Below are positions 5,841 to 20,793 of a stretch of 28,127 bases of DNA, piece by piece. Origin of the DNA: a virus. The notes beneath the pieces are model-generated. The model ran no database searches, was not told the DNA's origin, and was given only the letters and a program-made list of their open reading frames with translations. The DNA lies in IMG/VR virus record IMGVR_UViG_3300031857_001060, positions 1 through 28,127 of that record. One strand, 5' to 3'. Position numbers and translations under genes: made by a program. Within the stretch, counting starts at the first letter, position 1, and every line of letters begins with the position of its first letter.

Positions 5841-6741
5841 TCTGATCTATTTTAGATTTAGCCCAATTCAATGCAGCCTTACCTCCCCATAGTAGGTAGC
5901 TTATATATCCACAATCATTTGAATCTCCCTGATCATAATATACCTCAGCTCTGGATAGGTAGCTGTACATTCTCTTAATGGTTTCCATGCTCACTGCCTC
6001 ACCATTAGCTAACTGCTGTGCTCTAATCTTACCTACCTGAGTAGCACATTTATTCCCATTTCTTTCATTCAATGCTATGCCTCTCTGTGCATTCCTTCTA
6101 ACTACAGATGGGTAATCATTATAGCTCTCCTCTTCTAACTGCTGGCCCTTTAGTACCTTCTTAATCTGCTCTATCAGGTATTCCTTCTCCTCATCCATAG
6201 TTTTACGCATAGAAGTTTCCATAGCCATCTCATACTTATCTGCGAAGTATCCCTCTATACTGAATCCCTTAACTTCGCCATCCTTTACTTTTTTCCATAC
6301 ATCCGGATTATTAACCTTCATGCTTATCATCCATGTACCTTTAGGTAGTGAGAATCCATAGGCTGCACTCTTATCTTTTTCAGGGTTATCAATTATCCAG
6401 GATTCCACTACAGTCATTCCATCTATTTCTTTATCATGCTCATAGGTAGCCTTCTGATGGTTGCTGTTTATGAAAAACATTTCACTGGCTTTTCTCACTG
6501 TATCCTCACTGAAGTAGATATAGAATTCCCCATGCTTAGGATTCTTTCTATATATCTGCTTATTAGGAATCAATGCAGGCCCCATGAGTAGCTTTTTTTC
6601 CTTATCTACTGTAGCTAGCTCTATAGATTCCTTACTTAATTTGATAAAGTTTTCCTCTATGGCAGGATCCTCTACTACGGATACAGCATATACTCCCATC
6701 TCTTTATCCTTTTCATCCAGGATCAATTCAATTATTTTCAT
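5827..6741 (-). CDS. XkdF-like prohead protease with an extra C-terminal domain
   Basis: 304 residues. Residues 1-170 match the XkdF/Peptidase_S78_2 layout: an N-terminal SVVEDPAIEENFIKL segment near 21-35, a His in ATYEHD (H102) and a Ser in GFSIEGYF (S161). These are the candidate catalytic His and Ser of this serine protease family, which trims scaffold and capsid proteins during maturation. Residues about 205-300 form a separate helical domain (QVGKIRAQQLANGEAVS, MYSYLSRAEVYY, LLWGGKAALNWA) that I also know from the ends of other phage prohead proteases. Its place two genes before scaffold fits. The start shares one base with the tape-measure stop. Confidence 0.8.
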   Translation of the reverse strand: MKIIELILDEKDKEMGVYAVSVVEDPAIEENFIKLSKESIELATVDKEKKLLMGPALIPNKQIYRKNPKHGEFYIYFSEDTVRKASEMFFINSNHQKATYEHDKEIDGMTVVESWIIDNPEKDKSAAYGFSLPKGTWMISMKVNNPDVWKKVKDGEVKGFSIEGYFADKYEMAMETSMRKTMDEEKEYLIEQIKKVLKGQQLEEESYNDYPSVVRRNAQRGIALNERNGNKCATQVGKIRAQQLANGEAVSMETIKRMYSYLSRAEVYYDQGDSNDCGYISYLLWGGKAALNWAKSKIDQNGEG

Positions 6742-9023
6742 TATAATGTAGCGTTTGTTATTCTATTTCTATCTAGTGCCTGTTGAGTAGTTACTTCTGC
6801 TCCTACCACATATGCCTTAATTGGCTGCTGTTGTAACTGAGCTAACTGATTCAGCCCATTGTTACCTACTACGTTGAAGTTAGGAGCCATTACTCCACCT
6901 CCTGTGCCTCCTCCTGAAGCACCACCACCACCACCTATAGATGGCCCTGATGGAGCAGAGCCTCCTCCACCTATTTCTTTCAATGCCTTAGCTGTAGCAG
7001 CTACGTTAGCAGCTATTCCTAATGCTGTTGATATATTATTAGCTGCGATCACTGGAACAGCAGATACCCCACTGGATGCAATAGCCTGAGGAGTAGCCAA
7101 TGCACCTATATTGGCTAGCTTATTAGCGATCACCATCTTAGCAATACCTGCAGCACTCTCTATAATTACAGCAGTTTTTTGTGCTGCCTTACTTTTACCG
7201 AATATCTGCTTAATTAAATTGGCTGCCTGGTTAGCTATATCTACATATTGCATTTCTAGGGCTGCCTTCTGCTCATATGCAGATTTTTTATCAGCTATAT
7301 CCTTCGCATATGAACTAACTTGATTATCATTTAATGCCTTATTATACTTAATGAATGCAGCAGCACTTAAATTTTGATACTCCTCCTCAGTTATTAATTT
7401 ATTATCTAATGCATTTTGAAGATTCACATAATCCTGATCCAGGGCTAGCTTTTTAATTGCTACTTTTTTCTCCTCTTCATCAGTAATAAAATCTATTTCG
7501 AGCTGTCTCCTATCTAATTCATCTTTCCATATCTTATCCTCTGATGCTTTCATGTTACTCATGTTCAATGCATCATACTTATCATTGATATTTTTTATAT
7601 CATTCTGATACTGCTCAGTTATTTGTGTAGTATCCCTACCTGCTTTATCGGCTAATAGCGTTAAATCATCATATTTATTAGCAGCCTCCTGTAATTCTTT
7701 CTCTCTTGCATTTTTTATTCTTCCCTGTCTATCTGATTCAATAGCATCTAAGAATTTATTTAGATCTGCAGCATAATCCTTGACCTCTTCAGCAGTATCA
7801 CTAACTGAATCTTTTACATTTTTATTAGATTCAGCAAACTTAGTACCTCCATTCGTGAGATTATTCATTCTCTCTTCAGCATTCTGTAATGCTCCAGCAT
7901 AACCATCAAATCTACCTTTAGTAGCATCTAACTCTTGCTGAAGTTCTGCCTGTTTTTTCTTAGCATCTGCTACTGCAGCCTGCCTACCTGGCATAGATGA
8001 TTCTGCCTGTATAGTAATATTTAATTTTTGTATTTTACCCTCTAATTCAAGCTGCTTATTGAAGTTATTTTGCATAGCTTCATTAAGTGATTGAGCCTTA
8101 AATTTTAATTTTAATACATTTATATAATTTCTTATCTCATCATTTATAGCTCTTTGAAATCCAGCCTCATCTTTTAAGTTCTGTAAAGTAGTGCCATATT
8201 TAGCATTTATATCGGTAATTAATTTACTTCTCTCTTTACTACCTGCATTTGTTTGTTTTAATTGGCTAGCGAGCTTAAAGAATTCTACTCCTTCTTTAGC
8301 TACAAATTCTCTATTTTTCTTTGACTGCTCAGCCTGTCTTTTTTGTTTTTCTGCTAGATCATCAGATGAATCACCCGCCTCTTTAGTAGTAGATATATAA
8401 TATACTATTCCTGCTGTTAATGCTGTTAATGCTAATACTACTGCTCCTATTGGATTCATGGCCATAGCAGTATTCAATCCCTCCTGTGCTACTGCTGCCT
8501 CAGTGGTTACTACTGTTTCAGTTTGTTTAGCTGCTATGGATGCTGTGGTAGCTGCTACTGATGCTGTTTCTGCAGCATTCTTAGCAAATAACTTAGTAAC
8601 GAAATCACCTATTACTCCAGTTAAATTTATAAAACTATCTTTGGCCTCCCCTAATGACTGTAACCCCTGTGAGATAGCCATGGCACTCTGTACCTTTAGA
8701 AGTGTTTTTTGCACCTCCTCACCCTCAACTCCTAATAATCCCATAGCTCCCTGAACAGCAGAGAATCCTCCAGCTACTCCACTCAATGTAGCGGTGAATG
8801 ATTTGAATTTAGCATCCGGATTAAATGCATCCGTTAATGCTTTACTATCAGCTATCCTATCTTTTAGCTCTGCAGCTTTCTTAGCAGCAGCCGTAGCCTG
8901 TACGGATGTAGCACCATACTTATCAGCTAATGCAGCTACCTCAGCCTGTGCCTCCTTTAGCTGAGCTTTTAGGCTCTTGGAATTATCCTTAACCTCTAAT
9001 TCTATTGTTCTCTTTTCTGCCAT
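6741..9023 (-). CDS. Tail tape measure protein
   Basis: 760 residues, the longest protein of the late region. The N-terminal 60 residues are an Ala/Lys/Glu coiled coil. A hydrophobic block AMNPIGAVVLALTALTAGIVYYI spans about 188-210, followed by long charged coiled coils to about residue 590, another Ala-rich hydrophobic stretch (about 600-680) and a Gly-rich linker (about 690-715). This is the usual build of a tape measure, which sets tail length and travels with the DNA. With the commonly used 0.15 nm per residue the tail would be roughly 115 nm. Two tail genes precede it and the protease follows. The TGAGTTAT motif ends nine bases before the ATG. Confidence 0.85.
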   Translation of the reverse strand: MAEKRTIELEVKDNSKSLKAQLKEAQAEVAALADKYGATSVQATAAAKKAAELKDRIADSKALTDAFNPDAKFKSFTATLSGVAGGFSAVQGAMGLLGVEGEEVQKTLLKVQSAMAISQGLQSLGEAKDSFINLTGVIGDFVTKLFAKNAAETASVAATTASIAAKQTETVVTTEAAVAQEGLNTAMAMNPIGAVVLALTALTAGIVYYISTTKEAGDSSDDLAEKQKRQAEQSKKNREFVAKEGVEFFKLASQLKQTNAGSKERSKLITDINAKYGTTLQNLKDEAGFQRAINDEIRNYINVLKLKFKAQSLNEAMQNNFNKQLELEGKIQKLNITIQAESSMPGRQAAVADAKKKQAELQQELDATKGRFDGYAGALQNAEERMNNLTNGGTKFAESNKNVKDSVSDTAEEVKDYAADLNKFLDAIESDRQGRIKNAREKELQEAANKYDDLTLLADKAGRDTTQITEQYQNDIKNINDKYDALNMSNMKASEDKIWKDELDRRQLEIDFITDEEEKKVAIKKLALDQDYVNLQNALDNKLITEEEYQNLSAAAFIKYNKALNDNQVSSYAKDIADKKSAYEQKAALEMQYVDIANQAANLIKQIFGKSKAAQKTAVIIESAAGIAKMVIANKLANIGALATPQAIASSGVSAVPVIAANNISTALGIAANVAATAKALKEIGGGGSAPSGPSIGGGGGASGGGTGGGVMAPNFNVVGNNGLNQLAQLQQQPIKAYVVGAEVTTQQALDRNRITNATL

Positions 9024-12326: not shown

Positions 12327-12847
12327 TTCTTTTTAGCTTTTATTATCTGATCTAATGCCTCTAATGTGAGCTCCTCCATATCTAGCCCATACTTACTAAT
12401 TAACTCATCTGGTAGCTTTTTGTAACCCCCCTCGAATGCCTTAGTAAAGAATAGAGTAGGTTTAATCCCCTTCAGAAATATGCTTCGAGCTATCAGGAAC
12501 TGCAGGCTCTTTCTAGGCAGTAGCTTTCCTTTCTCATCCCTAGGAGCTATCCCTTTCCTTACTAGCCATCCATCCAACTTTTTCATTGGTGGTATCTTAG
12601 TAGTATATTTATACGGTGATCCCCATCCACGTTGCACACCATTCACCCCTTTATCCTGGTAGGCTCCATACTCCTCCATCTCAAAGTAGATCCCTATGCT
12701 GTTAGGCATTGCCTTTACTTCACCATCAATGGATTCATACAGGGCTCCACTGCTCTTCTTACCTGCTCTAGTTAGGTTAGCTCTGGCCTGCTTAACTACG
12801 TAATCCCTGAACTTCTTTAGCTCATCATATGTTTCTTGCTGATCCAT
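12323..12847 (-). CDS. HK97 gp10-like neck/tail-completion protein
   Basis: 174 residues. The layout is that of the HK97 gp10-like group: an N-terminal helix with ARANLTRAGKKSSGALYESI (18-37), a beta segment IGIYFEMEEYGAYQDKGV near 51-68, then PRKSLQFLIARSIFLKGIKPT (about 111-131) and a C-terminal helix. Such proteins act at the joint between head and tail tube. The product is basic. It shares one base with the preceding gene's stop and overlaps the following gene by four bases, so it belongs to a coupled neck cassette. Confidence 0.7.
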   Translation of the reverse strand: MDQQETYDELKKFRDYVVKQARANLTRAGKKSSGALYESIDGEVKAMPNSIGIYFEMEEYGAYQDKGVNGVQRGWGSPYKYTTKIPPMKKLDGWLVRKGIAPRDEKGKLLPRKSLQFLIARSIFLKGIKPTLFFTKAFEGGYKKLPDELISKYGLDMEELTLEALDQIIKAKKK

Positions 12848-13302
12848 TAGCAGATGGTCATATCATTAGGGCAAATTATATCTAAGGTCATAGCCCAGCC
12901 TACTAGGTTATTCTCGAATCTCTCAGTAAATGGCTCACAGGTAGGAGTAGATTCTACGTGATAATTCAAATCATGCAGGGCCCCATGCAGTAACATCTGA
13001 TAGGCTCTATTCAGAATCTGTAGTGTAGAATTCAATGCATCATTAGTATTATCCTTTGTCTCCCATTTAGTATCATCCTCCACCTTTACAGCATCAGTGA
13101 TATCCATGCAGAATATAGTAACTGTGAATCTTTGGATGTTAGCTTCAAACTGGGCCTGTGTAACCATTGTATGTACCAGGGGAAAAATTGTCTGCTTTGC
13201 TATATCCACATCAAATATATCCCCATTGGTAACTGTGTTAACTAGCACATCATTATCAAAGTGATCTTTAAGTGCTTTTACTAGCGTATAATATCCTGTC
13301 AT
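12847..13302 (-). CDS. Tail terminator-like protein
   Basis: 151 residues of mixed alpha/beta type. An opening helix (YTLVKALKDHF) is followed by VNTVTNGDIFDVDIAKQTIF (22-41), two strands (FEANIQRFTVTIFCMDI) and a conserved end ENNLVGWAMTLDIICPNDMTIC. This pattern is familiar from neck genes of Bacteroidota siphoviruses and resembles tail terminator proteins, which cap the tail tube before head joining. The ATG at 13302 overlaps the stop of the -1 reading frame of the chaperone gene as ATGA. That supports the -1 frame as the translated end of the upstream gene. Confidence 0.55.
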   Translation of the reverse strand: MTGYYTLVKALKDHFDNDVLVNTVTNGDIFDVDIAKQTIFPLVHTMVTQAQFEANIQRFTVTIFCMDITDAVKVEDDTKWETKDNTNDALNSTLQILNRAYQMLLHGALHDLNYHVESTPTCEPFTERFENNLVGWAMTLDIICPNDMTIC

Positions 13303-13580
13303 TTCTTTATTCTTTTATTTATTTCTCTTTGTTCAATTTCGTTTTTCTGCTTTTCAAAGGTGAGGTAAGTGAGACATTTATGTAATTGGTATCCGGTAAC
13401 TTCATCAAACTTTGAGATATCTCCCTTAGCGACTGCATATATGCTAGAATACCATCCCCACTGTTTAGTAAATTGCCCTCTTTCTGAGAAATCCTCCTCT
13501 GCCTTCTGCTCTGTTTGTTGCTCGTTAATGTCTCCAAATAATCCACTGTACTGCCTAATAACTCGTTCCCTAAATTGTAA
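13299..13580 (-). CDS. C-terminal extension of the tail assembly chaperone in the -1 frame
   Basis: If ribosomes slip back one base on the T9 run (13587-13579), codons continue from TTA at 13580 for 93 residues to TGA at 13299. There are no stops, and the residues look like a genuine folded protein: FTKQWGWYSSIYAVAKGDIS, then FDEVTGYQLHKCLTYLTFEK and a Lys/Glu tail. I know similar KWGWY...GD(I/V)xxFxEVT...CLxxLxFEK sequences from tail gene clusters of Bacteroidota phages. The stop overlaps the next ATG as ATGA, whereas the zero frame ends 16 bases short of it. The full shifted product would be 256 residues. A sequencing error in the homopolymer is the alternative explanation. Confidence 0.7.
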   Translation of the reverse strand, partial: LQFRERVIRQYSGLFGDINEQQTEQKAEEDFSERGQFTKQWGWYSSIYAVAKGDISKFDEVTGYQLHKCLTYLTFEKQKNEIEQREINKRIKK

Positions 13581-14068
13581 AAAAAAACCCTCGCAGAAAT
13601 TGCTATCTCCATAGGCATATACTTCATTAGATCATGCCACTCCTCACTACCTGTATATGGCATTATCTCATACTTATCTTTGTACGTCTTAGTAATGGGC
13701 CTGTACATCACAGCCATGGCTTTGTGGAAATCCTCCCATGAATTCATGTGATGTTCTAGATCAATATACTCACCCCAGCTAATCTCCTCCAGGTTAGGGA
13801 TGAATCCAAACTCCATCTCCTTTAATTTGAATCTCTGATAGAATACAGGCTTAACACTGAATATCTTATTGAAGTGCTCTACCAGGTTATTCATATCATT
13901 GTACTTAATCTTAGCTACATCCTTCAGCTCTATGCCGCAGAATATCTCTATCATTTTCTGAGCTATGAATTCCTGATCATCAGAATTCTCCTGTACTTTT
14001 AGGAATTTCTGATAATTAACTAATGGAATCTCAGCTATTGATTCAGGTACGGTTATGTCTACTTTCAT
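13319..14068 (-). CDS. Tail assembly chaperone, zero-frame product
   Basis: 249 residues in the zero frame. The first 163 (to the T9 run) include FIAQKMIEIFCGIELKDV (34-51), KEMEFGFIPNLEEISWGEYI (83-102) and HKAMAVMYRPI near 114-124, a family I associate with tail assembly chaperones of Bacteroidota phages. These bind the tape measure during tail polymerisation. After the run the zero frame continues 86 codons with a Ser/Arg/Lys-rich tail. Part of it (NSGDGILAYMQSLREISQSL) also looks like known family ends. The gene overlaps the preceding small gene by 26 bases. Producing short and long forms by frameshifting would parallel lambda G and GT, although here tail tube and tape measure are not adjacent. 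Confidence 0.65.
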   Translation of the reverse strand: MKVDITVPESIAEIPLVNYQKFLKVQENSDDQEFIAQKMIEIFCGIELKDVAKIKYNDMNNLVEHFNKIFSVKPVFYQRFKLKEMEFGFIPNLEEISWGEYIDLEHHMNSWEDFHKAMAVMYRPITKTYKDKYEIMPYTGSEEWHDLMKYMPMEIAISARVFFYNLGNELLGSTVDYLETLTSNKQSRRQRRISQKEGNLLNSGDGILAYMQSLREISQSLMKLPDTNYINVSLTSPLKSRKTKLNKEK

Positions 14069-14325: not shown

Positions 14326-15534
14326 TTATCTTATATAGTACTTTCCTTTGTTTGGATTTTCGAGCTGGTAACTAATAGCATATCTAATAGCATCCAGTGC
14401 ATGATTCCATTTATCTATTGGGGTTTTACTCTTCTGAGATAACCAGCAGTAGTTATTCAGTTCCTTAATCAGCTCTATGCTACCCTCATCTATCACCAGG
14501 TCATAATCCTGCATCAGGCTGATACCATAGCTCACTGAATCAGGCCCCTTAATTGCAGGCATAACATTGCACCCCATAGCATTCAGCTCAGTGATTAACC
14601 GGGGCTCTGCACTATCCCCTATGATTAGGTTAGCTCCTGCTCTACTCTTATTGATATCCGCTATCATGGAGGTGGTTAGGCCCTTCTCATACAGGTGCAA
14701 TCTTAGGTATATTTTCTTATTTGTGGTATCAATGGATGTTTCTACTAGCGTAGTAGGATCCTGTGAGAATCCGTAATCCTGTCCAAAAACTACAGAGCCC
14801 ATATTCTGGAATAGCCCTATGGACCAGTTAGAGAATATCACTCCTTCTGCTTTATCTAACCATCCACCTAAAATAGTATGCTGATATTTATCTGGCCTCC
14901 GTTCCTGCATGATAGCCACCTCATCTAGGAATGACTGCGGTAGGTTAGCTATGTTATCCTGGTACGTTGTATGGATGTAGCAGGTATCCCCATTCTCAGT
15001 ATTAGATCCAGGTTGCACCCCTCTATCCTCAAAGAATCTCTTGTATATCCAATGCTCCTTAGTGGATGGATTCAGGATCAGTATCACCCTGTTATCTCTT
15101 TTACTGCTACGGATGGATAGGTTAATCTTATCAAAGGTATTCTCTTCTGTTAGCTCTTCTGCCTCATCCACTATCCAGGTAGTTATTCCCTGTAATGATT
15201 TTAAGTTAGCTGTCTGATCACCGGATGAAGTTTTGATACCTCTGAATATAATCTCACTGCCTGATGTCTTATTGAGTATCTCACTCTTAGTTATCTCGAA
15301 ATGGGCCTCTAATCCCATGAGCTCTATTTTCTCCTTGAATTCTGGAATGATAGATATATGGGCTGATGTCATGGTTTGCCGGGTGAATAGTATCTTATGC
15401 CCTGGCTCGAATGATAGCAGGCATACCCATGCAGCTACGCTAAATGATTTAGAGCTACCTCTACCTCCAGTGATCACATAGTATCTGCTATCACTCCTGA
15501 ATAAATTACTATACTTCGAGCTTAGGCGTATCAT
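14326..15534 (-). CDS. terL: Terminase large subunit (packaging ATPase and nuclease)
   Basis: 402 residues. The ATPase half has Walker A GGRGSSKS (23-30), Walker B WIVDEAEE (120-127) and a coupling-type motif ILNPST (153-158). The nuclease half has the RNase H-like acidic residues in GQDYGF (D253), IGDSAEP (D307) and HALDAIRYAI (D381). The protein pumps DNA into proheads through the portal and cuts the concatemer. Length and motif spacing fit the Terminase_3/PBSX-like group. The start overlaps the small subunit gene by 26 bases in another frame, a common arrangement for coupled synthesis. All key residues appear intact. Confidence 0.95.
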   Translation of the reverse strand: MIRLSSKYSNLFRSDSRYYVITGGRGSSKSFSVAAWVCLLSFEPGHKILFTRQTMTSAHISIIPEFKEKIELMGLEAHFEITKSEILNKTSGSEIIFRGIKTSSGDQTANLKSLQGITTWIVDEAEELTEENTFDKINLSIRSSKRDNRVILILNPSTKEHWIYKRFFEDRGVQPGSNTENGDTCYIHTTYQDNIANLPQSFLDEVAIMQERRPDKYQHTILGGWLDKAEGVIFSNWSIGLFQNMGSVVFGQDYGFSQDPTTLVETSIDTTNKKIYLRLHLYEKGLTTSMIADINKSRAGANLIIGDSAEPRLITELNAMGCNVMPAIKGPDSVSYGISLMQDYDLVIDEGSIELIKELNNYCWLSQKSKTPIDKWNHALDAIRYAISYQLENPNKGKYYIR

Positions 15535-20321: not shown

Positions 20322-20354
20322 CAAATATATAAATAATTTAATTCACTGCTACAA
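20322..20354 (-). promoter_or_regulatory. Bacteroidota-type promoter before the ERF gene
   Basis: On the minus strand TATATTTG (20329-20322) matches the TAnnTTTG -7 element. A TTTG (20355-20352) lies 22 bases upstream, slightly longer than the usual spacing. It occupies the only gap (36 bp) in the replication cluster and leaves a leader of about 15 bases before the ATG at 20301. Confidence 0.5.
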
Positions 20355-20793
20355 ATTCATTAAAAAAATCTACAAAATCATCAAAGTTTCGAGCTATGTA
20401 GTAGGTACCTCCTGCCCTTTCAATCATCTCCTGGTATCTCTTCTGTGCATCACTCTGCCTATCCTTCCCTATCTTTACCTCTATCTTAACTGAACGGCCC
20501 TTAATGGTAGCAGATATATCGGCAGATCCTGCTGTGCTTGTGCCCTTTGTCCATGTTACTCCTATCACTTTACCGGCTGTAGTTTTTTTTTCTCTTGCTG
20601 TTCCCATGGTATTAATCCTTTCGGCCTGGTATCCATGGTAGTTAATATAATCACATATAGCTCTAGTTAATCCGTTAGCTGTTGAATCTTTGTACATTGT
20701 TTTAGGTATATAATCAGGTGGGTAATTGGGATGGGTTATTGCATACTTCCGCAGTTTTAACTCATGCATTAACAATTTATATTCTTTTTTCAT
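20338..20793 (-). CDS. VRR-NUC/Holliday-resolvase-like nuclease
   Basis: 151 residues. The C-terminal half has GSADISATIKGRSVKIEVK (89-107), with D92 and the E105-V-K107 core, then DRQSDAQKRYQEMIERAGGT (111-130). This is the order of a PD-(D/E)XK nuclease of the VRR-NUC kind, usually acting on branched or flapped DNA. The N-terminus is basic and may contact DNA. It lies between primase-helicase and ERF and could resolve recombination intermediates before packaging. Substrate preference cannot be read from sequence. Confidence 0.65.
   Translation of the reverse strand: MKKEYKLLMHELKLRKYAITHPNYPPDYIPKTMYKDSTANGLTRAICDYINYHGYQAERINTMGTAREKKTTAGKVIGVTWTKGTSTAGSADISATIKGRSVKIEVKIGKDRQSDAQKRYQEMIERAGGTYYIARNFDDFVDFFNEFVAVN

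Follow-up and report, generated by a model that had tools for sequence, protein, structure and literature searches.

One gene in the window, the whole 28,127-nucleotide stretch of viral DNA analysed here (IMG/VR record IMGVR_UViG_3300031857_001060), has a two-frame architecture that is conserved among its relatives, with purifying selection acting on both frames. As the best overall explanation, we lean towards a two-product, tail-chaperone-like gene whose -1 frame is reached mostly by polymerase slippage. This single recoded gene would make two proteins with a common N-terminal domain: a 'G-like' form from straight zero-frame reading, and a 'GT-like' form that ends in a helical domain coded in -1. 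Both products probably exist in the cell. Over about the first 20 codons, the overlap would mainly serve the zero frame, completing the last helix of the N domain; at codons 30-93 it would mainly serve the -1 domain, with the zero frame still constrained. Three features make the gene unusual: a strict T9-T10 run, a mechanism that is likely transcriptional, and a long overlap with selection on each frame.

The gene and its parts lie on the minus strand, as follows.

13319..14068, minus strand: zero-frame coding sequence of 249 aa, with the N-terminal domain (1-163, common to both forms) and the zero-frame C-terminal tail (164-249)
13579..13587, minus strand: T9 slip run, with the in-frame heptamer T_TTT_TTT at 13586-13580
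13299..13586, minus strand: -1 frame C-terminal (T-like) domain, terminating at TGA
13322..13578, minus strand: dual-coding region of about 86 codons, with purifying selection on both frames
13570..13572, minus strand: third-frame TAG stop just 3' of the T9, which would terminate transcripts minus one T
12847..13302, minus strand: next gene (phrog_30964, unknown function), whose start overlaps the -1 stop as ATGA

The local sequence is GCGAGGG-TTTTTTTTT-ACAATTTAGGG, with codons GCG AGG GTT TTT TTT TAC AAT TTA GGG around the run. An earlier note on this DNA had described an uninterrupted T9 at 13587-13579 read GTT TTT TTT TAC, a -1 slip opening 93 codons that end in an ATGA overlap with the next gene, and a zero frame also open for 86 codons to 13319; all of this is present in the sequence. 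Past the two TTT codons the zero frame stays open for 86 codons within the ORF 14068-13319, and the -1 frame for 93, up to a TGA (13301-13299) that shares bases with the next gene's ATG at 13302. The predicted junction peptides are ...ARVFFYNLGNELL and ...ARVFFLQFR. The window has a second nine-base homopolymer, an A9 on the sense strand (20583-20591, minus), within a 151-aa gene at 20338-20793 (...AREKKTTAG...).

Relatives were collected by peptide searches of viral contigs, using as queries the zero-frame protein, the -1 domain, the Nonlabens protein and three distant alignments. About 380 loci were fetched, some of them repeats of one contig, and these fall into 113 lineages at 80% identity; relatives of the zero-frame protein are 49-100% identical to it. 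In 320 loci, the -1 domain could be anchored on its WGWY codons, independently of the T run. T9 was present in 296 and T10 in 23, all with the domain in -1. In the one other locus (L103), a T10 fuses both parts in a single frame, around position 958; a natural, fixed fusion and an error are indistinguishable there. Among loci missed by the WGWY anchor, 59 of 60 have T9 or T10, and the remaining one (L046) has an upstream deletion. Runs of T9 or longer occur only twice in about 418 kb of the relatives' other ORFs, so the presence of T9 or T10 in every relative read is not chance. Reads with eight or ten T in the true sequence, or homologues with a single frame and random change in the other, had been named as what would overturn a programmed switch; the homologues hold T9 or T10 throughout with no run of eight, 319 of 320 loci have the switch, and constraint acts on each frame. 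One relative (L054, about 2360-2500) has a -1 frame that stops after 44 codons, with its T9 and zero frame intact. A prophage search of genome contigs confirmed no relative.

Frameshifting in tail chaperones is a textbook example of programmed recoding by the ribosome. In the gene described here, the most likely route to the -1 frame would be slippage of RNA polymerase on the T9 (U9 in the mRNA). With one extra U, normal ribosomes would enter the -1 frame; with one missing U, they would meet a stop close by. The ribosome may add to this by slipping -1 on the U_UUU_UUU within the run. That transcriptional slippage gives access to the -1 frame, which does not exclude ribosomal frameshifting, appears moderately probable from the pattern of conservation. 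If RNA polymerase does the switching, the same two-product logic is reached through a different step of gene expression.

The site combines features of both processes. As in programmed transcriptional slippage, the frame transition has an unbroken A/T run, about nine or longer, conserved in length and found in three phases; as in programmed -1 ribosomal frameshifting, an in-frame X_XXY_YYZ heptamer (T_TTT_TTT) is present in every lineage. The run starts in codon phase 1 in 107 of the 113 lineages, in phase 2 in 5 and in phase 0 in 1, always with a length of 9-10. This length, held across codon phases, suggests that the polymerase may make the switch. Lineages without a 5' T (first codons GGT, AAT or AGT) have a run that extends 3' instead. 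A T-to-C change silent in both frames is possible within the run in 98 of 113 lineages and was seen in none, which points beyond a ribosomal slip; in most of the 98 it would leave a T_TTT_TTC heptamer, and TTC makes up 27% of Phe codons. A third-frame stop lies 0-3 codons past the slip in 64 of 67 lineages, so that shortened transcripts would end at once, and may be a by-product of conserved Phe-Arg/Leu-Gly codons.

Programmed -1 ribosomal frameshifting on U_UUU_UUU, similar to that of lambda G/GT with another slippery site and compatible with slippage, is a serious possibility, if short of probable. Since the run always holds the in-frame heptamer, slipping by the ribosome accounts for the frame change just as well, and -1 ribosomal frameshifting is widely conserved in tail chaperones (PMC5009743). 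The 9-10 length would then be a by-product of hydrophobic or aromatic flanking codons, or of a stronger slip context. However, the run reaches at least nine in all three codon phases and, where a flanking T is lost, extends on the opposite side; T_TTT_TTC, the usual slippery-site alternative, never appears, and searches for a downstream stimulatory RNA structure found none in the window (z=+0.78). The alignment likewise gave no conserved RNA structure (consensus energy -0.59 kcal/mol, no pair changed on both sides), and Rfam gave no match. Such structures are common in -1 ribosomal frameshifting, though not obligatory. The programmed -1 frameshift proposed in the earlier note thus holds as a -1 switch, present with T9 or T10 in 319 of 320 loci; its agent may be the polymerase and not the ribosome, given the 9-10 length kept across phases.

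Polymerase slippage would place the gene beside known transcriptional slippage genes (Thermus dnaX, Shigella mxiE, IS elements), which share an in-frame A/T run of about nine or more with conserved length and have alternative products in other frames, here putative (PMC1088944, PMC5009743). Unlike those genes, this one is a phage morphogenesis gene with two long, conserved endings, and its slippage is putative. Our literature search found no tail chaperone made by transcriptional slippage. We give slightly better than even credence to the broader proposal that a large phage family makes two tail-chaperone forms by RNA-polymerase slippage at an obligatory T9-T10, in place of ribosomal frameshifting, the unslipped form having a selected tail in the DNA that also codes the domain of the slipped form.

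Both frames of the overlap are coding and under purifying selection, as assessed by counting tests rather than a formal codon-model fit. When the -1 protein was recoded with the codon usage of the window, an 86-codon open zero frame arose in 0 of 2000 trials. When the observed codons were permuted instead, an open zero frame had P=0.012 in the window, and most relatives gave values below 0.05. Third positions of -1 codons coincide with second positions of zero-frame codons, which means that any third-base change silent in -1 alters a zero-frame residue. With the upstream N domain as reference, -1-silent change fell to 0.10-0.12 at codons 6-18 and to about 0.4-0.75 up to codon 72. The slowing begins at the run, with none upstream. 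At -1-frame four-fold sites compared in disjoint pairs, the ratio to the upstream rate was 0.06-0.17 for the first 20 codons; past codon 20 it was 0.46-0.54 in groups with long zero frames (p<1e-20). Two-fold synonymous sites show some slowing also after the zero-frame stop. The residues tell a similar story by position: a zero-frame helix, LLxATLxYLExE, is kept at codons 8-20 with zero-frame codon periodicity, and the -1 domain dominates conservation at about codons 30-95.

A function for the -1 domain alone after the run, with a zero frame open by chance or through the weeding of stops, is very unlikely. The -1 domain is the better conserved frame past codon 30 and is also present in the Nonlabens clade, where the zero frame stops early. 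But four-fold sites unable to create a zero-frame stop are still slowed past codon 20, to a ratio of 0.43 (disjoint pairs, p=1e-24), and zero-frame residues are kept at codons 8-20 where the -1 residues vary. Most directly, the clade with a short zero frame, which ends 15-28 codons past the run, serves as a control and contradicts this reading: past its stop, the same region shows no slowing (ratio 1.04, p=0.8). The earlier suggestion that the C-terminal third is coded in two frames, to be examined by aligning homologues for purifying selection on each, is therefore borne out by constraint in both and by its absence in the control clade. A single sequence would then carry two alternative endings of the protein, both functional. 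The long overlap is a clean natural case of two proteins evolving in one DNA, with sister clades lacking the overlap as a built-in control.

It is likewise very unlikely that the -1 domain forms a gene apart, starting by itself within the first one. The annotation of Nonlabens phage P12024L does have a separate 55-aa CDS, but it begins late and omits conserved residues. An internal start was rejected: 107 of 113 lineages have no ATG ahead of the WGWY motif, and the window's gene has no ATG, GTG or TTG there. The chance of a homopolymer sequencing or assembly error in a truly continuous gene is close to nil, because the same T9/T10 switch is found in the approximately 380 fetched metagenome loci and in the genome of the cultured Nonlabens phage P12024L, even though homopolymer indels are common and the T10 of L103 fuses the frames; as had been argued from the window by itself, such an indel would not explain two good frames, and both are under selection.

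The -1 domain is common to all clades, including the Nonlabens phages. The zero frame extends 55-94 codons past the run in most lineages, 39-41 in one group and 15-28 in the Nonlabens clade. On the simplest reading, the -1 domain is old, as is a short zero-frame end, and the lengthening of the zero frame over existing -1 code would have come later. In Nonlabens phages P12024L and P12024S (genes 40/41, and PHROG 32199), the N domain is homologous, the T9 lies in the same phase and the -1 domain is homologous, whereas the zero frame ends 15-28 codons past the run. Genes 40 and 41 are annotated in these phages as two unrelated hypothetical genes. In P12024L (L047, JQ823123.1 23946-24640), they are the alternative frames of a single recoded gene that has the same T9, so that the one cultured relative found has two supposedly unrelated hypotheticals that belong together.

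In recoding of the lambda G/GT type, the gene sits between the major tail protein and tape measure genes; the short form binds the tape measure and the long form binds the major tail protein. Two neighbours bear on the comparison.

14326..15534, minus strand: terminase large subunit (terL), the upstream neighbour
6741..9023, minus strand: tape-measure-like protein, downstream on the same strand (phrog_9959, phrog_339 and others)

The operon runs terL, recoded gene, phrog_30964, phrog_29822, two larger genes, tape measure and head protease. The recoded gene thus adjoins terL and shares its strand with the tape measure, which lies four genes downstream; no family match identified a major tail protein. 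Judging from architecture and operon position, the gene most likely acts as a G/GT-type chaperone, and this role is a likely one. The identification as a tail assembly chaperone made in the earlier note is supported by these two features but not by any family match: Pfam and PHROG gave no chaperone family for the N domain or the -1 domain. Its claim of the same principle as in lambda G/GT agrees with the relatives, as one N-terminal domain is followed by a C-terminal extension reached through a -1 switch in 319 of 320 loci. Like lambda G/GT, the gene would give a short protein and a -1-extended protein with a common N-terminal part, and it lies upstream of the tape-measure gene (for lambda, PMC5009743 and general knowledge). 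Unlike lambda G/GT, it adjoins terL, has no detectable sequence homology to it, slips at T9-T10 instead of G_GGA_AAG, and keeps 55-94 zero-frame codons under selection where the lambda zero frame ends near the slip site. We read this as a genuine variant of lambda G/GT-type recoding, whose selected dual-coding region is unusually long and whose mechanism is probably transcriptional.

Structure prediction (AF2) of the zero-frame product gave a pLDDT of 83.7, with the N domain mostly above 90, a long helix crossing the slip site and low confidence in the tail past residue ~196. The -1 domain alone was predicted as an all-helical bundle (pLDDT 86). Against the PDB, Foldseek gave the zero-frame model no match with E<=0.001, only chance helical matches; there were no PDB candidates for VIA-align with the -1 domain, and PDB sequence searches returned nothing. 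Matches among viral structures were to uncharacterised phage proteins, to Nonlabens and to Flavobacterium phage 6H. One weak BFVD match (E=0.24, prob 0.80) is named tail assembly chaperone, the sole structural match so named. In phage 6H (L221, KC959568, 10048-10927 minus), a gene with a structurally similar N domain stops soon past TGT TTT TTC TAT, and about 300 bases containing an open frame separate it from the next annotated gene; its -1 frame hits a stop at once, so the switch is unreadable there and this locus was not used as evidence. Several BFVD entries (A0A516L611, A0A6J5N0W0, A0A6J7WDG4 and others) are single chains of about 226-267 aa that match both the N-domain and the -1-domain models, and shorter ones, of 43-84 aa, match just the -1 domain; the databases probably hold both in-frame fusions and missed frameshifts.
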